64,000 nucleotides of DNA from Candidatus Omnitrophota bacterium (GTDB lineage Bacteria; CAIJMQ01), in contig JAHJCU010000008.1 of the NCBI GenBank assembly GCA_018812925.1, forward strand, positions 62,001 through 126,000, given 5' to 3'. Below the pieces are notes generated by a model that had not been told where the DNA came from, ran no database searches, and was given only the letters and a program-made list of their open reading frames with translations. The stretch's first letter is position 1. The number at the start of each line of letters is the position of its first letter. Below, one piece after another: positions 6,695 to 17,450 of this stretch. Position numbers and translations under genes: made by a program.

Positions 6695-7954
6695 TTAAAA
6701 AGTGTAAGTTGTAGAGATTTCAAACATATGTGAATGTCCCCAATAATCGCCATTAGTAGGAGGAACGTTTTCGCTATCTTCTGCTTCTCTTTTTATCCCT
6801 TGAGAATATGCATATGCAACATCTATTTTCATTGTCCATACAGGGAAACTCGCACCTACAAAATATCTGTTGCTTGAAACGTCAAACATCATAGGGTCTA
6901 AAGTCTCCGCAGGAACGGGAGACGGATCCCACATATAGCCACCCCTTAAAGCAAACTCGGGGGTTACTTCATATTCTGCTCCGATTCTAAAGATATATCT
7001 ATCTTTCCAATCGCGCGAAACTTCTATTTCATCTGTAATTATAGCAGTTCCAAATGGCGGGGGAACAGGACTCCAAAGTGTTACGGGGTCGTCTAATTTT
7101 TGAGTAATTGTGTCCATTCGCGACCAATTTACCCAATCAACCTGCCCGCTTAAAAGCCATCTTTCAAAACCAGAGTAACTAACTCCTATAGACGCTGTTT
7201 GAGGAAATGTGAAATCCATAGAAATTTCTCTGTCAAATGTAGTAAAACCCGCACCACCTATATCAACCTCCCCTTTGAATTTAACATTTGTTTCGCTTCG
7301 CCAAACACCGCCTACCGTCCAATTATAAGAAGAAGGCGACCACAGAAAACCGATATTACCAGATGTTCCTCTTCCTTCTCCCTCAGTTTTTACATAAGCT
7401 GCACTGGGGGCTCCTCCTCCATCAGGAATGACAATGGAATAAGATTTGGTATTCATTTTAGCAAAGCCTTCTGCTAAACCCGCCCCTATTAAGAAATCGT
7501 CTGTCAACTTTAAAGACATACCTGCCTGAAGATTACTCAAAGAAATTTCCGAACGAGTAGAGTTATAATTTAAAGAAGCATCATCTTTCCATCTTTGCCC
7601 TAGACCAAAAGGCACATAGTATCCTAACCCCATACTGAAAGAATCAGTAAAATTATGCGCAAGGAAAAGGTTGGGTATCATCTGGGCAGTCGTTGTGCTT
7701 TTTTCTTTATCTGCCCCGTCCACTTCATAGTATGAATATGGGGCAACAAACGCCGTGCCACTCATATATAAAGTTCCTTTGCATAATCCCAATCCTGCCG
7801 GATTCCAAAAAAGAGAAGAAGGGTCGTCTGCAACCGCCACAAACGCGCCACCCATCCCCGTAGCTCTTGCTCCAATAGAAGGAGCCTGCATACTTCCAGA
7901 ATATACAGTTGAAACCAATAAAACAAAAAAAGCAATTACAAGCAATTTCTTCAT
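6695..7954 (-). CDS. OMPP1/FadL/TodX-type outer-membrane protein
   Basis: 419 residues. A signal peptide is clear (KKLLVIAFFVLLVSTVYS, cleavage near residue 20). The mature N-terminus has APSIGARATGMGGAFVAVAD followed by DPSSLFWNPAGL, the hallmark of the OMPP1/FadL family, long-chain fatty-acid or hydrophobic-compound channels in the outer membrane. The remainder is rich in alternating beta strands, and the C-terminus ends in TTYTF with a terminal aromatic residue, the beta-barrel assembly signal. A GGGGGATAATA ribosome site precedes the ATG. It lies 72 bp downstream of the HD-GYP regulator on the same strand and may be its target or the last gene of the signalling operon; that link is inference. 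Confidence 0.85.
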   Translation of the reverse strand: MKKLLVIAFFVLLVSTVYSGSMQAPSIGARATGMGGAFVAVADDPSSLFWNPAGLGLCKGTLYMSGTAFVAPYSYYEVDGADKEKSTTTAQMIPNLFLAHNFTDSFSMGLGYYVPFGLGQRWKDDASLNYNSTRSEISLSNLQAGMSLKLTDDFLIGAGLAEGFAKMNTKSYSIVIPDGGGAPSAAYVKTEGEGRGTSGNIGFLWSPSSYNWTVGGVWRSETNVKFKGEVDIGGAGFTTFDREISMDFTFPQTASIGVSYSGFERWLLSGQVDWVNWSRMDTITQKLDDPVTLWSPVPPPFGTAIITDEIEVSRDWKDRYIFRIGAEYEVTPEFALRGGYMWDPSPVPAETLDPMMFDVSSNRYFVGASFPVWTMKIDVAYAYSQGIKREAEDSENVPPTNGDYWGHSHMFEISTTYTF

Positions 7955-8026: not shown

Positions 8027-9055
8027 TTAATCCCCACAATTTTCCAAAACTTTCAAAGCTATGTCAAGAATTTCAGGATGAAAATGAGTACCTCTACCTT
8101 CTTTAAGATTTTTTAAAGTCTCTTTTTTGCTAAGAGCCTTTCGATATGGTCTGTCTGAACGCATAGCATGATAAACATCCGCAATAGATATTATACAGGC
8201 AAACAATGGAATTTCGTTTCCTTTCTTCCCTTTGGGATATCCTGTCCCGTCATATTTTTCATGATGGTCTTGTATTATACACATATAGTTCTTCAATATG
8301 CTCATAGGATTTAATATAGGGCTTACTATGGAACAGCCGATATCAGGATGTTTTTGAATAATTTTCCATTCTTTAGCATCTAGTTTTCCGTCTTTACTTA
8401 ATATCCTCTCCGGAATTCCTATTTTCCCGATATCGTGCAGAGAAACCAAATAATGAAATATATTTTTTTCTTCGGGGATAAGTTTCACAAAGGAAGAACA
8501 TTCTTCTAGTATCAATGAAGCATAACGAGCAACTTGTTCGGAATGAATAGAAGTATAACCATCCTTAGCATTGATTGCCGCTAAAAGAGAATCTACCGTA
8601 GAATAATAAAAATCCTTTGTCTTTTTCTCAAGTGATTTTTTCACGTTTTCCAAATCTAATAATTTCTTTTTCTTTTCTCTATTTTTCCCTCTTTTTTTAA
8701 TTTTCTCTTCGATAATTTCAAGAAGTTTATTCTTACTGAACGGTTTATTTACATACGCAGAAGCGCCATTTCGCATCGCTTCCGTAGCACTATCTAACGT
8801 ACCATATCCTGTAATCATTATTATTTCAATATCTTCATCTATTGTTTTTAATTTTTTTAAAAGTTCTATCCCGCTTATTCCCGGCATTTTTATATCCAAT
8901 AAAGCCACATCAGCCATATCTTCTTTAAATTCTTTTAATATTTCGTCACCTTTGGTAAAAACCGATAAATCGTAATAGTCCTTTAGAATCATTTTTATGG
9001 ATTCTCTGACACTTTTCTCATCATCCACAATAATTATTTTGTTCTTCTTTTTCAT
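8027..9055 (-). CDS. Response regulator with HD-GYP phosphodiesterase domain
   Basis: 342 residues. The N-terminal receiver (about 1-120) has the acidic pair D11-D12, phosphoacceptor D54 (ALLDIKMPG) and K104 (VNKPFS). After a basic coiled-coil linker (120-150) comes an HD-GYP domain with HDIGK, IPERIL, the metal/active loop DHHEKYDGTGYP and SIADVYHAMRSDRPYR. HD-GYP domains of this type hydrolyse cyclic di-GMP or related dinucleotides. All key residues seen are present, so activity controlled by phosphorylation is expected. It lies 85 bp downstream of two histidine kinase genes on the same strand, the obvious candidate partners. A GGGGAAAT sequence precedes the ATG. Confidence 0.92.
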   Translation of the reverse strand: MKKKNKIIIVDDEKSVRESIKMILKDYYDLSVFTKGDEILKEFKEDMADVALLDIKMPGISGIELLKKLKTIDEDIEIIMITGYGTLDSATEAMRNGASAYVNKPFSKNKLLEIIEEKIKKRGKNREKKKKLLDLENVKKSLEKKTKDFYYSTVDSLLAAINAKDGYTSIHSEQVARYASLILEECSSFVKLIPEEKNIFHYLVSLHDIGKIGIPERILSKDGKLDAKEWKIIQKHPDIGCSIVSPILNPMSILKNYMCIIQDHHEKYDGTGYPKGKKGNEIPLFACIISIADVYHAMRSDRPYRKALSKKETLKNLKEGRGTHFHPEILDIALKVLENCGD

Positions 9056-9140
9056 CCATTTCCCCTTTCTTGTAGTATATGAGTGTCTTCTTCTATTAAC
9101 CGCCCCCTTACATTTTATAACATTGAACCAGAGTATTTTC

Positions 9141-11537
9141 TCATTTTATACCAAGCTTTTCCATTTTATATGAGAACATTCGTCTACTTATGTTTAATAA
9201 TTTTGCAGCTTTAATTTTAACTCCACCTGTTTTTTCCAAAGCATCGATTATCAATTTTTTCTCCATTGAAGACACTTCTTCTTCCAAAGATAGTTGCTTT
9301 TTAGAAGAAACGTCTATAGCTTTTGGCTCATTGGGCTTATCTGTCGGTTTAGGGGGAGAAACATCCGTCGGTTCTTGTTCAGACTTACCTTCCAATTTAG
9401 AGTTTGAACTTTCTTTTTTTACATCTTCACGTTCTATATCGGGAGCTATCCAACCGTCGGAATATTTTTCGGTTACAGGCAAATTCTTGGGAGAATAAAT
9501 AGGCACTGCTTCGGATTTATAAACAGGTATAGGAACTTCTTCTTTTTCTGTGGCAATGGGAATAAATACGTCAAAGGTTGTTCCTTTATTAGGCGTTGAG
9601 GATATATTACTGCTTCCGCCGTGTTTTTCGACAACCTGTTTTACAATAGGAAGTCCCAACCCCAACCCTTTTGTTCCTGTCGTAAAAAACGGGGAATAAA
9701 CTTTTGACATATCTTCAAAATCTATGCCTTTACCGTTATCTTTAAATGTTATTTGAACCTGTTTCTTGCTATCATCATATGAAGTCTTGACATTTAATCT
9801 TCCGCCTGTCGGCATAGCAGACAAACTGTTTTGCATGAGATTTGAAAAGGCTTCTTTCAATTTATCGCCGTCAAGCAAACACATCGGCACAGAACTAGCA
9901 ATATTTTTATTAAGATTTATGTTTCGTTTTTTGAACTCTTCTTGGAATTCTCCCATAGCTTCTTCCAAAATAGAATTGATGTTTTCCATAGAAAGATTAA
10001 GTTTCGAAGCGTCAGAAAGTTTTTCTAATCGGTCAACAATCTGATTTAACTTGGAAACACTGTCTAAAACCGTTTCGTGGTAATCCTTCACAAAACTTTT
10101 GTCTTGGTTTTTTTCAGGCAAAAGTTGAGCAAATGTGCTGATAGAAACAAGCGGATTCCTTACTCCGTGAGCCATTCTTCCTGCAAGTTCCCTCCAGAAT
10201 TCTTCTTCTTTTGTTTTGTTCAATTCTTTTTCCAATCTTTTAACTTCCGATATGTTCTGGAAAACCATCAAAGCACCTTTGATTCTGTTAGCTTCATCTT
10301 TTAAAGGAACTGTGCTGATACCCAGAGAAATATTTTTCCCCGGATACACTACCTCATGTCTGTTATAAACTTTTTCATCATAAAGAGTTCTCAACATAAT
10401 GTCGGCAATTATAGAACCGGCTCTTTGAATATTCTTGCCTATTAAATCGTCTTTTATTCCAAAAATGTCTTTTGCAGATTTATTTATCGAGGTTATTTTA
10501 CCTTCCTTATCTATAGTTAAAACTCCCGAAGAAATATTTTTCATTATGTCGCAAAGGTGTTCCCTATGTTGAATAATTTCCCTATAAAGGCAGGAGTTTT
10601 GAATAGCCAATGCTGTATAGTTGCTCATCATGTATAAAAATTTCAATTCACCGACAGTAAAATCTTCGCCGGTAATTTTTTTACCCAAACTTAAAAAACC
10701 CAAAAGTTCGCTATCGTCAAATAACGGAATACATATCTCCGCTTCTAAAAGTTCCATTTCTTCTTTAACATAAGACGGAATCAGCTTGTTTTGTTTTGTC
10801 AATATTTGACCGTTTTTTAAAAGCCAGCCTGCAATTCCGTCTGCATCCTTAACTCTAAAATCTTCCACAATATCCTTCTTCATTCTCAAAGCATTTTTGA
10901 TTTTGTAAAAAGAATTACCCTCTTCTTTTAAGAGAATTGCCATTTTCCCTACTTCAAAAACTTCAGACAATGTGGTTACAATCATTCCAAATAATTCTTC
11001 CGGCTTAAATATATGGGTCAAAATGCGGGAAAATTTCCTGAATGTCTCCTGATAGTAATAGAACAGACGCCGAAATTCTTCCTCGGGTAAGAAATCCTTG
11101 TTTTCGGTAAAAATTTCCCTTGATTCCAAATTAGGCTGATTTTTTTCATTTTCCAAAACCTTGATTTTCTTCATAAGCTGAATTCTTTCATTTGCTCTGG
11201 AAATAAGATAAGCAAGTTCTTTTCTTTGGAAAGGTTTGACGAGCCATTCATAAACTTTGTTTTCCATAAGCTCTTCTCTTGTTCTTTCGTCAGACGTAGA
11301 AAGAAGAACTATTGGAATAATTTCCGAAGCAATACTTCGCGCCTGCTGAATAAATTCCAAAACATCTATCCCTTTTATGGGAGTGTCTAAGATTAAAACG
11401 TCAATCTGTTTTTCGTTTATTATCCGCAGCGCTTCTTGAGGATTTAAAACGGAAAACAGAAAAAATTTATCATCAAGTATTGCCTTTAATGACTCTTTTA
11501 TCTGTTTTTGCTCTGCAACAATTAGTATATTTTTCAT
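9141..11537 (-). CDS. Receiver-GAF-PAS-histidine kinase fused to a Fis-type DNA-binding domain
   Basis: 798 residues with an unusual order. Receiver 2-115: phosphoacceptor D51 and K101 are present, but the usual acidic pair is A8-E9, so metal binding may be weakened. Coiled linker 125-170. GAF about 175-318. PAS about 325-430. HisKA with H457 in GRMAHGVRNPLVS. HATPase with NLMQNSLSA, DNGKGID and GTKGLGLGLPIV. Then a long Pro/Glu/Ser-rich linker (about 665-745) and a C-terminal helix-turn-helix ending in KAAKLLNISRRMFSYKMEKLG. That last segment is the Fis/NtrC-type DNA-binding fold without the AAA+ sigma-54 domain. No membrane helix is seen. The start overlaps the end of the upstream kinase by 4 bp. 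A kinase that may bind DNA itself is the notable point. Confidence 0.88.
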   Translation of the reverse strand: MKNILIVAEQKQIKESLKAILDDKFFLFSVLNPQEALRIINEKQIDVLILDTPIKGIDVLEFIQQARSIASEIIPIVLLSTSDERTREELMENKVYEWLVKPFQRKELAYLISRANERIQLMKKIKVLENEKNQPNLESREIFTENKDFLPEEEFRRLFYYYQETFRKFSRILTHIFKPEELFGMIVTTLSEVFEVGKMAILLKEEGNSFYKIKNALRMKKDIVEDFRVKDADGIAGWLLKNGQILTKQNKLIPSYVKEEMELLEAEICIPLFDDSELLGFLSLGKKITGEDFTVGELKFLYMMSNYTALAIQNSCLYREIIQHREHLCDIMKNISSGVLTIDKEGKITSINKSAKDIFGIKDDLIGKNIQRAGSIIADIMLRTLYDEKVYNRHEVVYPGKNISLGISTVPLKDEANRIKGALMVFQNISEVKRLEKELNKTKEEEFWRELAGRMAHGVRNPLVSISTFAQLLPEKNQDKSFVKDYHETVLDSVSKLNQIVDRLEKLSDASKLNLSMENINSILEEAMGEFQEEFKKRNINLNKNIASSVPMCLLDGDKLKEAFSNLMQNSLSAMPTGGRLNVKTSYDDSKKQVQITFKDNGKGIDFEDMSKVYSPFFTTGTKGLGLGLPIVKQVVEKHGGSSNISSTPNKGTTFDVFIPIATEKEEVPIPVYKSEAVPIYSPKNLPVTEKYSDGWIAPDIEREDVKKESSNSKLEGKSEQEPTDVSPPKPTDKPNEPKAIDVSSKKQLSLEEEVSSMEKKLIIDALEKTGGVKIKAAKLLNISRRMFSYKMEKLGIK

Positions 11538-14035
11538 GGTTTTACGGTTAAAAATTTGTGACTATACGCTTTTAAGAATATCGGCAAATAGATTAAAAAA
11601 GTAGTTCCTTTACCCGCTTCGCTTTCGACCGCTATATTACCGCCATGGTCAATTACAGCGCGATAAACAATAGCCAATCCCAATCCCGTTCCATTATCTT
11701 TTGTGGTAAAGAAAGGGTCGAATACCCGCGAAAGATTTTCCGCAGGAATTCCAATTCCGGTATCCTGAATTTTTAAAAGAATTTGCCTGCCGTTTTCGGT
11801 TTTTTCATAAGATGTCGTTATATATAATTTCCCTCCGTTTTCCATTACTTCTATCGCGTTAAGTAAAAGATTTAACAGGATTTCGTCAAATCTTGTTTTA
11901 TCTATGTAATTTTCCGGAATATCGGGGGCATATTTTTTAATTATTTTTATACCATAACTGTTAAGTTTTGTGCTCATAAATTTCAAATTTTCATCAATAC
12001 ATTTATGAATATGATTTAGGGTAAAATTAGGAGATTTTGGTTGGGCAAAATTAAGAAGCCGATGGATAAGGTCATCTATTTTTTTCACCTCTTCGCAGGC
12101 AGAAGCGGAAAACTCATTCCTAAATTCAGAGTCGTCATATTTTTGCGGCAGTAATTCAAAAAAAGTATTGATGGCAACCAAAGGATTTTTAATTTCATGC
12201 GCCATACCCGCCGCCAAAGTCCCCACAGTAGCAAGTTCTTCGGCTCTATTTAACTGGCGCTCCAATGTCCTAATTTCCGTAAGGTCAGCAAGAACCAAAA
12301 TTACACCATTTATTCTGTTATTCTTTCCCTTTATCACCGCAGTCCCGACGCCGAGTATCATTGGTTTTACTTTATCCGCATCCGCTTTTTTCTTGTCCCT
12401 AATATATTCTATTTCATAGCTGGAAAAACCTTTACCGAATTCTTCTACATCGACTATAGCTTGAGAAAACTCATCAGGAAGAATCTTTTTATAATTCTTT
12501 CCTATAGCTAAAGAAGCTGAAATCCCTGTCATTTGTTGCGCTTTTTCGTTAAATATACGAATCTTGTCCTCTTTATCCGTAACGATAACCGCATTCGCAA
12601 GATTTTTTAAAATATTTTCCTGATATAACTTTGCTTGTTCCACCTGAGTATAAAGACGCGCATTTTCAATGGCAACGCCCGCATGATTGGCAAGAGTAAG
12701 CAAAAGGTCTATATCTTCTTCCGTAAACATATCCCCTGAAGACTTGTTCTTAAGAAAAATTATCCCTGTCAAGATATCTTCTCTAATTATCGGCATTGCC
12801 AGGTCTGCTCCGATTTTACCAAGAGAATTTTTCATATCCTGGAATTGCTTATCTTCACTTATCCTTTCCCATTCATCTTTAATAACTGCATCCTTTTTCT
12901 GTGTCATCCAAACAATAAGGGAATCATTTTTAGAAAGCGCTATACTTTTGTTGGAAAAATTGCCCAATAAAGACTTTACTTTAAATTTATTTGCCTCGCG
13001 CAAATAGATAACACCGCCGTCTATACCCATTGTATCCGTTATATTCTTTAAAATATATTTCAGTAATCTTGGTAAAGGTAAAACTCTGCTTAATTCCCTA
13101 CCCATTTGTTTGAGAACTCGTTGATATTCATATTTTTTCTTGCCGAACATTTTATCAACCAAAGTTTGAATTTTTTCCCTTAATGGCAAAAATATAAATG
13201 TTACCAGTAAAGCTGCAAAAACAGCGGAAAAGAAGAAAGTCTGATGACCCATAAACATTCTAAATATGCGTTCTGCTAAAAGAACTCCTAACAACAAAAC
13301 AGCAGTTACTGAACCTGTAAGAAGAGTATATATAGCTGTTTTTTTGACTATTATGGTAATATCGAATAACCTGTATCGAACAATTGTATAGGTAGTAAAT
13401 CCTATGATAACCACAGTCACTGTAGGTCCTAGATATATCATTGCGGAAATATTAAACATAGGCAGAATAACAGTGCCTATTAAAGCAATAGAAGTCGCAA
13501 TCAGAAATCCGAAAAAATTAAACTTTACCTGTAATTGTTCATATTTATTATTTGAAAGTTTCCACTTTTTATACAAAAACCAAAGACAGTAGATCATGCC
13601 TATTCCCTCATATACAGCAAATAGAAGATACCAAGAACCCAATACGGGTCGCAGACCTATTTCTGTTATTTGTACACTCTCTTGTATTAATGAAGTAAAA
13701 CTAAGAATTATAAACAAAACAGACCCAGCACAAAGTAAATATAAGGGTTTTGTAGATATATTTTTATTTATTTGGGGGAAAACATAAATGAATATAGCAA
13801 GTGCTACAGGAATTATAGAGCCAATAGCATAAGCAAATTTACCAAATGTTGTTACTACTTCTACGTTGTGAGATATAGATATAAGAAAATTAATAAAACT
13901 CCATATTACAAGAACAAAAATAAATAATGAAAAAACTCTATTCTGCAATTTTTTAGGATTTTGCCATATAATATAAATACCAAATCCTAAATTTATTATT
14001 ATGCACAATAAAAGAAATAAACTTTTAAATTCCAT
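11534..14035 (-). CDS. Membrane sensor histidine kinase (multi-TM, GAF, PAS)
   Basis: 833 residues. The N-terminal 285 residues form about eight or nine hydrophobic helices resembling the 7TM sensor region of PrsK/KinB-like kinases, ending in IFLPLREKIQTLVDKMF. A GAF domain follows (about 325-460), then PAS (about 470-590), HisKA with H613 in LAAGMAHEIKNPLVAINTF, and HATPase with LNLLLNAIE, DTGIGIP and DNGTGLGLAIVYR. All catalytic boxes look intact. The gene starts 7 bp after the ketosynthase stop and overlaps the next kinase by 4 bp, so the three genes are almost certainly one transcript. Lipid, redox or envelope state are possible signals; this is a guess from the ketosynthase neighbour. 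Confidence 0.92.
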   Translation of the reverse strand: MEFKSLFLLLCIIINLGFGIYIIWQNPKKLQNRVFSLFIFVLVIWSFINFLISISHNVEVVTTFGKFAYAIGSIIPVALAIFIYVFPQINKNISTKPLYLLCAGSVLFIILSFTSLIQESVQITEIGLRPVLGSWYLLFAVYEGIGMIYCLWFLYKKWKLSNNKYEQLQVKFNFFGFLIATSIALIGTVILPMFNISAMIYLGPTVTVVIIGFTTYTIVRYRLFDITIIVKKTAIYTLLTGSVTAVLLLGVLLAERIFRMFMGHQTFFFSAVFAALLVTFIFLPLREKIQTLVDKMFGKKKYEYQRVLKQMGRELSRVLPLPRLLKYILKNITDTMGIDGGVIYLREANKFKVKSLLGNFSNKSIALSKNDSLIVWMTQKKDAVIKDEWERISEDKQFQDMKNSLGKIGADLAMPIIREDILTGIIFLKNKSSGDMFTEEDIDLLLTLANHAGVAIENARLYTQVEQAKLYQENILKNLANAVIVTDKEDKIRIFNEKAQQMTGISASLAIGKNYKKILPDEFSQAIVDVEEFGKGFSSYEIEYIRDKKKADADKVKPMILGVGTAVIKGKNNRINGVILVLADLTEIRTLERQLNRAEELATVGTLAAGMAHEIKNPLVAINTFFELLPQKYDDSEFRNEFSASACEEVKKIDDLIHRLLNFAQPKSPNFTLNHIHKCIDENLKFMSTKLNSYGIKIIKKYAPDIPENYIDKTRFDEILLNLLLNAIEVMENGGKLYITTSYEKTENGRQILLKIQDTGIGIPAENLSRVFDPFFTTKDNGTGLGLAIVYRAVIDHGGNIAVESEAGKGTTFLIYLPIFLKAYSHKFLTVKP

Positions 14036-14042
14036 TTTCTAT

Positions 14043-15287
14043 TTAACCCATATATTTTTTCACCACCATACTTGAGTTATTCCCTCCCAAACCATGGGAA
14101 TTTATAACTACTACACCAACATTATTCTTCCTTGCTTTATTAGGTACATAGTCTAAATCACATTCCGCATCAGGAAATTCATAATTAATAGTCGGAGGCA
14201 TAATTCTATCCTTCATAGCCATTAAAGAAGCAATCAATTGCATAGGACCCGCAGAAGCTAATGGATTTCCTGTCATTGATTTAATTGAGCTTATAGGAAC
14301 TTTATACGCATAATCACCGAAGACTTCCTTAATTGCAATCGTTTCTGCTCTATCTCTTACAATATCTGAAGGAGCATGAGCGCAAATGTAATCTATATCG
14401 TCCGGTTTCAAAGAAGATTGTTCTAAAACTTGCTTCATCTCTTTAACAAATCCTTTACCATTTATATCGTTTTCAAATAAACTAGAAGTTTTTGTATTAT
14501 CACTATAACCCTTTATTTCTCCGTATATAAAAGCATTTCTATTAACAGCATGTTCAATTTCCTCTAAAATTACAATTCCTGCGCCTTCACTTAAAACACC
14601 ACCGCTGCGCTTTGCGTCAAAAGGGCGACTGGTTTTAGCAGGATTTCCGTTGTGCGTGGAAAGAATTCCTGTTGCGCATAAACTCCCTAATGTTAAAGGC
14701 GTTACAGAGCCGTCCGTTCCTCCTGCAATTGCAGTATCTATTTTACCTGATTTAATCTCTTCAAATGCAGTTCCTATTGCATCTAACCCACAGGTGCATC
14801 CTGTAGATATAGTAATAACCTTACCACTAAAATCTAACTCAATTGAAACTTCAATAGCCGCAGAATTCGGGAAATAGGCAACTGAACCAAAAGGGCTCAT
14901 TTTATGAACACTTTTTTCTCTAAGAACTATATGTTCTCTTTCAAAAATATCCATTCCCCCCGAAGAAGAACCTATATAAATACCTGCTCGGTTATTATTT
15001 AAGGATCCCTTTTCTATTTTAGCATCTTTAACAGCCATCTTTGCCGAAGCAACCGCAAAATGAGCAAATCTTCCGGTTCTTCTTACTGTTTTAAAATCTA
15101 GATATTCAGAAGCATCGAAATTTTTAATCTCACCTGCAATTTGAATTGGGAAAGAAGAAGCGTCAAATAAGGTAATCTTGCCAATACCGGATCTTCCATT
15201 TATTAAAGCATTCCAGAAAGCGTCCTTACCTATACCATTGGGAGCCACAACTCCGAGTCCTGTTACAACAATTCGCCTTTTACCCAT
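14043..15287 (-). CDS. fabF: Beta-ketoacyl synthase (FabF / type II ketosynthase-alpha like)
   Basis: 414 residues from the ATG at 15287 (MGKRRIVVTGLGVVAPNG); an upstream in-frame ATG at 15338 would add 17 residues unlike the family and would lie upstream of the inferred transcript start. The active-site cysteine is in STGCTCGLDAIG, a sequence closer to type II polyketide ketosynthase-alpha than to housekeeping FabF. The two histidines are in ICAHAPSD and INSHGLGGNN, and the lysine is in SSIKSMTGNPLASAG. The enzyme would condense malonyl-ACP with an acyl primer. No ACP, reductase or malonyl transferase gene is adjacent; instead it heads an apparent operon of two histidine kinases. Its substrate is unknown. 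A good promoter is seen upstream. Confidence 0.88.
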   Translation of the reverse strand: MGKRRIVVTGLGVVAPNGIGKDAFWNALINGRSGIGKITLFDASSFPIQIAGEIKNFDASEYLDFKTVRRTGRFAHFAVASAKMAVKDAKIEKGSLNNNRAGIYIGSSSGGMDIFEREHIVLREKSVHKMSPFGSVAYFPNSAAIEVSIELDFSGKVITISTGCTCGLDAIGTAFEEIKSGKIDTAIAGGTDGSVTPLTLGSLCATGILSTHNGNPAKTSRPFDAKRSGGVLSEGAGIVILEEIEHAVNRNAFIYGEIKGYSDNTKTSSLFENDINGKGFVKEMKQVLEQSSLKPDDIDYICAHAPSDIVRDRAETIAIKEVFGDYAYKVPISSIKSMTGNPLASAGPMQLIASLMAMKDRIMPPTINYEFPDAECDLDYVPNKARKNNVGVVVINSHGLGGNNSSMVVKKYMG

Positions 15288-15320
15288 ATCGATTGGACAA
15301 TTTTGTACACTCAAAACAAT

Positions 15321-15349
15321 AGGGTACCATTTTAGCACATTCCTGTCAA
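15321..15349 (-). promoter_or_regulatory. Sigma-70-type promoter for the ketosynthase/kinase operon
   Basis: On the minus strand TTGACA (15349-15344), a 17-bp spacer and TACCCT (15326-15321). The expected start is near 15314, giving a leader of about 27 nt to the ATG at 15287. Confidence 0.5.
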
Positions 15350-15473: not shown

Positions 15474-17108
15474 TTAGGATGAAAAGATTCCGTTGTTTAT
15501 ATCTATAACTTCTTTTCTTATTGCTTTTTCGTCTCCGCTTAAGAAAAGAACTCTATTTTCGTCTCTGAACTGTCTTGGAGACTTTCCCGCATATTTCGCC
15601 AATAGAGCCAAATCATCGGAGACAGCAGTAAGTAATCCATTTTTCTCTAAATTGTCCGTCATTTTTCCTGTTTGAGCAGAGAATTCTTTGAAATTTTTAC
15701 CGTTGACTTTGTATGGAAGAGGGCTCCAAAATCTTGGAGGAGAAAATAATTTGATTTTATAATTCATTACTTTTAAAGGATAGGATTCTTTATCAAGCTG
15801 TATATTAAAATCAGAAGGATTATTAGCCCATTCGGTTTGAGGATAAACTCCGGGAATTTGAACAAGCACCGAATCAGGACAAACTCTGAGGAGCATATCC
15901 AGGGTTTCTTTTCCTGTGTCCTCTGTTTCAAAAGGCGCAGGAAATATTATACTAACTATAGTAAACAGACCTGATTTCTTAGTTTGCATAAGAACATGTT
16001 CAATGTTTTTAGCTTTTACATTTTTGTTCATTGCATCAAGGATTTTTTGACTGCCCGATTCCATACCATAAAAAACTGCAAAACAACCTGACTTTTTTAA
16101 TATTTGAAGGATCTCAGAATCCATACTCCTTATATGAGCAAAAGATGAATACTCAACTCTTAATTTTCTTTTTATAATTTCTTCAGCAATACCTTTTAAC
16201 AACTGTGGAGGTGTAGAAGAACCTGCAAATCTAAAAATAGAAATTTTTTCTTTATTTAGAAAGTGTACTATTTCGTCCACCAATCTATTGAAAGATTTCA
16301 TACGCAAATGTCCACTCTTAATAGGATGGATACAGAAATGGCATTTATTAGGACATCCCCTACTCTCATCAAGAACAAGCATTTTAATCTTTTCTTCATT
16401 TCCTCCCATTGCCTCATACACAGAAGAATCATAAACAGGAAACGGCATAGAATCCAAATCCTTTATCCTCTGAATAGGATTGGTAACCATTTGCCTGCCC
16501 TTCTTGAAAATCACATTGGGAATACTCTCTAATTTTCTCTTGCCCTCGACATATTCGGCAAGCATCACTATCGTTTCTTCGCCTTCGCCATACACCAAAC
16601 AATCAAACGCATCTGTCACCTTGTGAATATTATCTAAAAACATGTCTACCTGAGGGCCGCCTGCAAAAACCGGCATATTGGAAAAGTTTTTTTTGATAAG
16701 ATTCGCAATTATTTTTGACGCTGTGAAACCGTCACCATTCCATAGTTTCAAACCGACAAAATCTATCTTGTTAGATTTTATATAAGAAACAATTTCTTCG
16801 GCTATTTTATAAAATTCCCGTCTTTGAAAATTTTCCAACTGCCTAACCGAGAAAAGATAAGGAATAATATAACGTAGCCCTTTTTTCTCTTCAATCAGAA
16901 TATTCTCGATGTTTTTTTTCATTTTCTTGTGGAATTGTTCCGGAACAAGTCTTCCTATCATAGAAGTAGTATTCAAATCCATAATTTTTGTAGTATGTCC
17001 GTGCTTTAACAAAGATGCGGCTAAATTGGCCAGTCCGTTATCGGGGAGTAGGCTTGAAGGAGTATATGGGTAACCTGCGAATGTTATAAGAAGACTGTTA
17101 GTGCTCAT
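15474..17108 (-). CDS. B12-binding-domain radical SAM protein
   Basis: 544 residues. The N-terminal part (1-190) looks like a cobalamin-binding Rossmann domain of the BchE type (LITFAGYPYTPSSLLP, GLANLAASLLKHGH, then FVGLKLWNGDG and VFAGGPQVDMF). A radical SAM domain follows with the [4Fe-4S] motif C-x3-C-x2-C in ESRGCPNKCHFCIHP and a YGMESGSQKILDAMNK strand. The C-terminal 130 residues are specific to the protein. Such enzymes do methylations, cyclisations or other radical chemistry; the substrate cannot be told. It is upstream of the ketosynthase on the same strand, but a 186-bp gap with its own promoter separates them, so a shared lipid or natural-product role is possible only. Confidence 0.85.
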   Translation of the reverse strand: MSTNSLLITFAGYPYTPSSLLPDNGLANLAASLLKHGHTTKIMDLNTTSMIGRLVPEQFHKKMKKNIENILIEEKKGLRYIIPYLFSVRQLENFQRREFYKIAEEIVSYIKSNKIDFVGLKLWNGDGFTASKIIANLIKKNFSNMPVFAGGPQVDMFLDNIHKVTDAFDCLVYGEGEETIVMLAEYVEGKRKLESIPNVIFKKGRQMVTNPIQRIKDLDSMPFPVYDSSVYEAMGGNEEKIKMLVLDESRGCPNKCHFCIHPIKSGHLRMKSFNRLVDEIVHFLNKEKISIFRFAGSSTPPQLLKGIAEEIIKRKLRVEYSSFAHIRSMDSEILQILKKSGCFAVFYGMESGSQKILDAMNKNVKAKNIEHVLMQTKKSGLFTIVSIIFPAPFETEDTGKETLDMLLRVCPDSVLVQIPGVYPQTEWANNPSDFNIQLDKESYPLKVMNYKIKLFSPPRFWSPLPYKVNGKNFKEFSAQTGKMTDNLEKNGLLTAVSDDLALLAKYAGKSPRQFRDENRVLFLSGDEKAIRKEVIDINNGIFSS

Positions 17109-17198: not shown

Positions 17199-17274
17199 TG
17201 GTGGCGAGACCCAGAATCGAACTGGGGACGCCAGGATTTTCAGTCCTGCGCTCTACCGACTGAGCTATCTCGCC
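17199..17274 (-). tRNA. tRNA-Phe (GAA)
   Basis: Minus-strand cloverleaf with acceptor pairs GGCGAGA/TCTCGCC, D-arm with AGCTCAGTCGG, anticodon loop CTGAAAA (anticodon GAA), T-arm with GTTCGATTC. The 3' CCA is encoded. Confidence 0.97.
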
Positions 17275-17311
17275 ATTTCTTTATTTGATGCTTACCATAA
17301 ACCAAAAATCT

Positions 17312-17337
17312 CTGTCCGCTTTGCAAGCAGGCGGGGA
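17312..17337. repeat. GC-rich palindrome, intergenic copy
   Basis: Reads CTGTCCGCTT, then TGC, then AAGCAGGCGGGG: the same core as the palindromes in uvrC, ribD and ogt. It sits in the 102 bp between tRNA-Phe and tRNA-Arg. Confidence 0.6.
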
Positions 17338-17376
17338 TAACCATTTGTCATTAAACGTCATTATATCAAATACTAG

Positions 17377-17450
17377 CGCGCCTGGCAGGAATCGAACCTG
17401 CAACCTACGGATTAGAAATCCGTTGCTCTATCCGATTGAGCTACAGGCGC
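17377..17450 (-). tRNA. tRNA-Arg (TCT)
   Basis: Minus-strand cloverleaf with acceptor pairs GCGCCTG/CAGGCGC, discriminator G, anticodon loop TTTCTAA (anticodon TCT) and T-loop GTTCGATTC. CCA is not encoded (CTA follows), unlike the neighbouring tRNA-Phe, so a CCA-adding enzyme must be used. Confidence 0.97.

Follow-up and report, generated by a model that had tools for sequence, protein, structure and literature searches.

A ketosynthase and sensor kinase cassette conserved across bacterial phyla: a candidate acyl-compound signaling system

Results

The ketosynthase and its kinases belong to a gene block found in several phyla

The 64,000-nucleotide stretch of Candidatus Omnitrophota DNA analyzed here (assembly GCA_018812925.1, contig JAHJCU010000008.1, positions 62,001 to 126,000; the window) carries on its minus strand, in order of transcription, genes for a B12-binding radical S-adenosylmethionine protein (rSAM), a ketosynthase (KS), two histidine kinases (HK1 and HK2), a REC-HD-GYP response regulator, and a FadL-type outer-membrane channel (Table 1). 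The intergenic distances KS-HK1, HK1-HK2, HK2-HD-GYP, and HD-GYP-FadL are 7, −4, 85, and 72 bp. A preliminary description of this DNA had named the KS, both kinases, the HD-GYP regulator, and the channel, and domain annotation located each of them; the 7-bp KS-HK1 spacing, the overlap of the kinase genes (4 bp), and the KS active-site motif STGCTCGLDAIG were likewise borne out, and no gene for an acyl carrier protein (ACP), ketoreductase, or dehydratase lies inside the cassette. The description missed the head gene, rSAM, which belongs to the block in relatives, and it counted in the channel, which is present here but is an occasional neighbor elsewhere.

Gene order was compared with that in relatives, which are metagenome-assembled genomes (MAGs) or other genome assemblies. 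The neighbors were conserved in about 70 genomes, and the order rSAM-KS-HK1-HK2-regulator was found in at least seven phyla, those of G000 (the window genome; 1.47 Mb, 14 contigs, 92% complete), G033, G284, G030, G021, G384, and G299. This conservation supports the earlier claim of a real enzyme-plus-signaling block and excludes a chance arrangement. Within the genus, G001 has KS-HK1-HK2-HD-GYP-FadL, and in G002 a radical-SAM gene is followed by KS-HK1-HK2, after which the contig stops. The complete set of six genes occurs, in the same order, in the MAG CSMAG_1505, whose KS is 72% identical to that of the window; the MAG AUK276 has a different radical-SAM gene and then KS-HK1 until its contig ends. 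In a second phylum (17 genomes), KS-HK1-HK2 was present in five genomes, with the HD-GYP gene wherever the contig continues. The genes overlap or almost abut across phyla.

An HK1-only profile, searched over 386 diverse genomes at an E-value of 1e-150, gave 14 matches; nine were new and uncut, and in all nine HK1 lay between a KS directly ahead of it and an HK2-like gene behind it. In further phyla, the profile searches matched 20/35, 2/3, 3/3, 1/5, and 35/68 genomes, a spread that is a lower bound since HK1 matches were taken at fixed E-value cut-offs. Altogether, KS lay directly upstream of HK1 in each of the 55 new HK1-only matches with readable upstream sequence. As a control, the loci of 26 other KS genes (L007-L032) were inspected, and none had an HK1-like gene within 1.5 kb. 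The pairwise divergences of KS, HK1, and HK2 were correlated (Mantel test; permutations reaching as high a value: KS-HK1, 6; KS-HK2, 0; HK1-HK2, 0 of 1000).

The channel gene lies downstream of the cassette in G000, G001, and G076 and is divergently oriented in G148 and G284; as it adjoins the cassette in some genomes only, we rejected it as a core part. The KS of CSMAG_1505 is 99.8% identical to that of G433 (G284 phylum), and the window genus carries the same six-gene block (L033 and L104 compared with the window). Horizontal transfer of the block between the CSMAG_1505 lineage and the window genus is possible, because the two KSs are 72% identical and yet come from genomes assigned to separate phyla.

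The cassette ketosynthases have an altered active site

The window KS keeps Cys181 (STGCTCGLD), His321 (ICAHAPSD), and Lys353 (SSIKSM; P0001 numbering), while the second histidine of the Cys-His-His triad is replaced by Asn358 (SMTGNPLASAG), a register backed by alignment to Bacillus subtilis FabF. The structure model (pLDDT 94.4) has the FabF fold, with a TM score of 0.97 to B. subtilis FabF. Cys-His-Asn is the condensing triad of FabH-type enzymes, and extending KSs use Cys-His-His plus Lys (PMC12664062). The catalytic cysteine is present in every cassette KS in which that region is sequenced. At the position of the second histidine, the window's group and the G284 phylum have Asn, the G299, G021, and G384 phyla have Gln, and G030 and G195, which have lost the first histidine as well, have Ile; among cassette KSs, only those of the G033 phylum retain the second histidine. 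All of the approximately 49 other FabF-like KSs compared keep this histidine, as do nearly all of 26 further paralogs.

In a tree of 66 KSs, the 17 cassette KSs shared one side of a branch (support 97/98). When the 26 paralogs were added, the strict single clade of all cassette KSs was lost: 24 cassette KSs, from all phyla except that of G033, fell in a 100/99 clade that also contains one long-branch paralog, and the Cys-His-His KSs of the G033 phylum branched near it but apart. The window genome has two well-scoring KS genes, and the other, on contig C11, adjoins a gene for a 78-aa ACP and retains HGTST and GHMLG. The cassette KS stood apart from this FabF beside acpP in both trees, so the grouping that the preliminary description had named as fatal to its idea was not observed, and we rejected a housekeeping FabF identity. 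We also rejected a type II polyketide synthase (PKS), since chain-length factor and ACP are absent from the window cassette and its annotated relatives; the TGCTxGLD-like cysteine motif, which we take to resemble that of the type II PKS KS-alpha, served as a lead only. A second carrier-protein domain, a possible partner for the KS, was noted at G000:C10:137291-137488 within a 904-aa open frame.

The radical-SAM protein, kinases, and outputs

The G000, G284, G021, and G299 phyla have the rSAM gene ahead of KS. Its product is about 42% identical to that of the window, but about 24% in the G299 phylum and 31% in G002, and the CxxxCxxC motif (SRGCPNKCHFCI) is retained in seven of eight aligned relatives. 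The window protein reaches no NCBIfam equivalog (top match 132 of 600 bits) and matches the HpnJ and HpnR models weakly. Its structure model (pLDDT 92.7) is closest to the solved folds of TsrM, MgmA, OxsB, and CysS, with which it shares a B12-binding plus radical-SAM fold but only 14-18% identity. The G299 protein (L097:2568-4322) has lost CxxxCxxC and has no Pfam match, yet keeps its position in the cassette.

The kinase motifs of HK1 are all intact (H-box AHEIKNPL), and the H, N, and G boxes are invariant in 18 relatives. Its kinase part weakly resembles the PrsK of PEP-CTERM/XrtA systems (TIGR02916, 131.7 of 300 bits required); with a score so far below the cut-off and no exosortase genes in the cassette, we rejected a PrsK identity. 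The window HK2, in contrast, has a degenerate REC domain and a degenerate H-box (AHGVRN). Across relatives, the acidic pair of its REC domain is degenerate; Gln replaces the H-box histidine in G033, G062, G030, and G299, and G148, G284, and G384 show erosion of the ATP-binding glycines. Given this degeneracy, HK2 seems to have a coupling or scaffolding role in many lineages.

The HD-GYP regulator has intact catalytic motifs (LHDIGKIG, HHEKYDGTGYP) and an intact REC domain (VDDE, LLDIKMP), and five GGDEF matches in the window genome indicate that its predicted substrate, cyclic di-GMP (c-di-GMP), would be available. The output protein is HD-GYP in G000, G033, and G021 and in some G284-phylum genomes, whereas most of the G284 phylum has HD-GYP together with an NtrC-type regulator; several G299-phylum genomes have the NtrC type. 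In G030 and G195, the output is a REC-HK-REC hybrid, and the cassette ends in an MMPL/RND-type exporter with a sterol-sensing-like domain (L096:13014-15347 and L094:2991-5333, respectively). In G062, an SDR-family oxidoreductase gene separates KS from HK1, and a GAF-GGDEF gene ends the cassette. Several cassettes of the G284 phylum lie directly upstream of apparent mreB, mreC, mreD, PBP2, and rodA genes, as read from N-terminal sequences (L100 13647-17620, L101 13128-17083, also L204, L205, L208, and L210-L213), and a link to cell shape is possible.

A conserved dyad lies at the head of the operon

The sequence ACAAAATTGT 5' of the KS start is invariant in G000, G001, G002, and CSMAG_1505 and lies inside the dyad TGTACAA-AA-TTGTACA; since its distance from the ATG differs among these genomes, it is non-coding. 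Among the operon heads whose sequence was retrieved, the dyad (TGTACAAwwTTGTACA) was found in 12 genomes from at least two phyla (e.g., L101 upstream of 3040 and L190 at 653). In G284, G413, G407, G404, G408, G405, and G403 it lies, sometimes twice and with 11 to 14 of 14 positions matched, no more than about 110 bp from the start of rSAM, and in AUK276 it sits within a TTGACA/TATACT promoter. ACAAwwTTGT has a background frequency of about 0.008 occurrences per 200 bp. In the about 0.5 Mb (about a third) of the window genome that was searched, the KS site was the sole one scoring at least 13 of 14, and no wider regulon was found; one 12/14 match (L045:6146) falls within a coding region. The dyad was missing in the G021 group and at most operon heads of the G299 phylum. 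Another motif, TTGACANNNNTGTGCT, common to G000 and G001, was rejected as it was not seen in G002 or G076.

The TGT-N10-ACA form, known from NifA sites, suits a helix-turn-helix domain of the Fis/NtrC type. Its conservation suggests that the dyad is a candidate autoregulatory operator, which the cassette's own HTH_8 domain may bind. The dyad also bears on the KS start: ATG 15287 is more probable than GTG 15338, because relatives begin there, a stop codon lies in frame 5' of it in G001, and the non-coding dyad occupies 15294-15309. The promoter proposed earlier at 15321-15349 did not hold up well; it is weak (TTGACA, 17 nt, TACCCT, with 3/6 matches at −10) and was unreported by a consensus scan.

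On the rSAM side, the cassette is flanked by two tRNA genes (17199-17450) and housekeeping genes for a HAD hydrolase, an XerC/D-type recombinase, and topoisomerase I; the other flank holds those for an aminotransferase, AIR carboxylase, and chorismate synthase.

Table 1. Features of the cassette in the window (positions within the 64,000 nucleotides)
Feature	Coordinates	Strand	Evidence
rSAM, B12-binding radical-SAM protein, first cassette gene	15474..17108	-	Pfam B12-binding and Radical_SAM
Candidate operator dyad TGTACAAAATTGTCCA	15294..15309	-	12 genomes carry it 5' of KS or rSAM
KS, cassette ketosynthase, from the probable start (14043-15338 if from GTG 15338)	14043..15287	-	ketoacyl-synt 162 bits, C-terminal domain 92 bits
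HK1, histidine kinase	11534..14035	-	HisKA_7TM, GAF, PAS, HisKA, HATPase_c
HK2	9141..11537	-	REC, GAF, PAS, HisKA, HATPase_c, HTH_8 (Fis)
REC-HD-GYP response regulator	8027..9055	-	HD, HH, GYP residues intact
OMPP1/FadL outer-membrane channel, accessory	6695..7954	-	domain match; downstream in G001 and G076 too

Discussion

The cassette probably constitutes an undescribed system for responding to an acyl compound that the cell either makes or binds. Our best explanation, to which we give slightly less than an even chance, is a conserved unit of synthase, sensor, and output, and we infer its chemistry, ligand, phosphotransfer partners, and DNA binding as follows. In most cases together with the B12 radical-SAM enzyme, the KS would make or remodel a compound derived from an acyl thioester, drawing on the AcpP and fatty-acid machinery of the cell. 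The seven-transmembrane (7TM) kinase HK1 would sense this compound, or the change that it causes in the membrane, with the partly degenerate REC-kinase HK2 serving as coupling partner. Phosphate would then pass to the HD-GYP regulator, acting on c-di-GMP, and/or to the NtrC-type regulator, acting with sigma-54, and the HTH_8 domain, carried by HK2 in the window and by the NtrC regulator elsewhere, would bind the upstream dyad and autoregulate the operon.

This synthase-sensor-output explanation is favored by the gene order kept across phyla, the constant KS-HK1 pairing and its absence around other KS genes, the correlated divergence of KS, HK1, and HK2, the retained catalytic cysteine, the Cys-His-Asn triad of the window's group, and the cluster motif retained by most rSAM proteins, as well as by the SDR and GGDEF genes of G062, the exporter of G030 and G195, and the GGDEF matches in the window genome. 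It is also in keeping with G148 and G418, in the G284 phylum, whose cassettes lack both an HTH_8 protein and the dyad. Several observations weigh against it. Most cassettes have no dedicated ACP or reductase, and the output protein varies. An NtrC regulator is present in G423 and G425, yet the dyad is partial in the former and absent in the latter. The loss of both histidines in the KSs of G030 and G195 and of the cluster cysteines in the G299 protein fits a non-catalytic role in those lineages and suggests that some may have turned enzymes into sensors.

The main alternative is that the KS is a sensory subunit rather than a synthase, whose cysteine binds acyl-ACP or malonyl-ACP and whose acylation is read by HK1/HK2, so that the cassette monitors lipid synthesis. 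KS-HK1 is indeed the most constant pair, exceeding rSAM in this respect, the second histidine has been lost repeatedly (to Asn, Gln, and Ile) while the cysteine stays even where both histidines are gone, and the scarcity of ACP and reductase genes would be expected. The Asn version, however, still gives a known condensing triad, and an rSAM with an intact cluster motif, the SDR, and the exporter all indicate a product that is made; we regard a sensory KS as possible but less likely than a synthase. B12 radical-SAM enzymes are known in lipid modification, and the rSAM and KS might instead make a structural or protective lipid, with the kinases merely regulating its synthesis under envelope or redox stress and no ligand feeding back. 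The FadL and MMPL neighbors, the membrane-embedded 7TM sensor, and the weak HpnJ and HpnR matches agree with this proposal, but two kinases and a second-messenger regulator are a heavy apparatus for two enzymes, and the HD-GYP and NtrC outputs extend past the operon; we judge it unlikely. A last alternative, in which an ordinary extra FabF came to lie beside a two-component system by accident, seems highly improbable. The KS does score above the PRK07314 cut-off, so databases would name it beta-ketoacyl-ACP synthase II, but it fails the FabF equivalog TIGR03150 (441.9 vs 493.75 bits), its catalytic residue is altered, its clade is separate from housekeeping FabF, and its adjacency to the kinase is conserved across phyla.

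Stated so as to embrace both a sensing and a synthetic KS, the proposal is that of a multi-phylum module in which a KS with one elongation residue lost is either a kinase subunit that reads acyl-ACP or, with the B12 radical-SAM enzyme, a maker of acyl signals of a new class, driving c-di-GMP or sigma-54 output. We advance this tentatively, as plausible but somewhat short of an even chance.

In line with the preliminary description, no described system with this gene combination turned up in the open-licence papers that were searched. Among the nearest is the RpfF-RpfC-RpfG system for diffusible signal factor (DSF) in Xanthomonas, which likewise joins an acyl-thioester enzyme, a multi-transmembrane histidine kinase, and a REC-HD-GYP regulator. 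RpfF is a crotonase-fold enzyme, whereas the cassette enzyme is a thiolase-fold KS; RpfC is a single hybrid kinase with five transmembrane helices, whereas the cassette has a 7TM-GAF-PAS kinase and a second REC-kinase; and the DSF system has neither a radical-SAM gene nor an NtrC variant. It nevertheless sets a precedent for enzyme, multi-transmembrane kinase, and HD-GYP protein acting as a unit, in which a REC domain also binds the synthase (PMC5391125). The photopyrone synthase PpyS of Photorhabdus is a signal-making KS with a Cys-His-Asn triad (PMC4578411), as in the window KS. PpyS, however, derives from FabH-type KSs, its receptor PluR is a LuxR solo rather than a kinase, and its block has no second-messenger regulator. 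FabF (KAS II) and the type II PKS KS-alpha share the fold, the catalytic cysteine, the first histidine, and the lysine with the cassette KSs, which differ in mostly forming their own clade, in having Asn, Gln, or Ile for the second histidine in nearly all cases, and in lacking a chain-length factor or ACP gene beside them.

If the proposal is true, the cassette, which stayed hidden because its KS is automatically named FabF, would be a second architecture for fatty-acid-based signaling alongside DSF, in apparently mostly uncultured lineages. It would tie lipid synthesis to B12 radical-SAM chemistry and to control by c-di-GMP or sigma-54 in a way that can be tested directly, and its substitutions of His by Asn, Gln, or Ile would amount to an experiment on ketosynthase active sites that nature has repeated.

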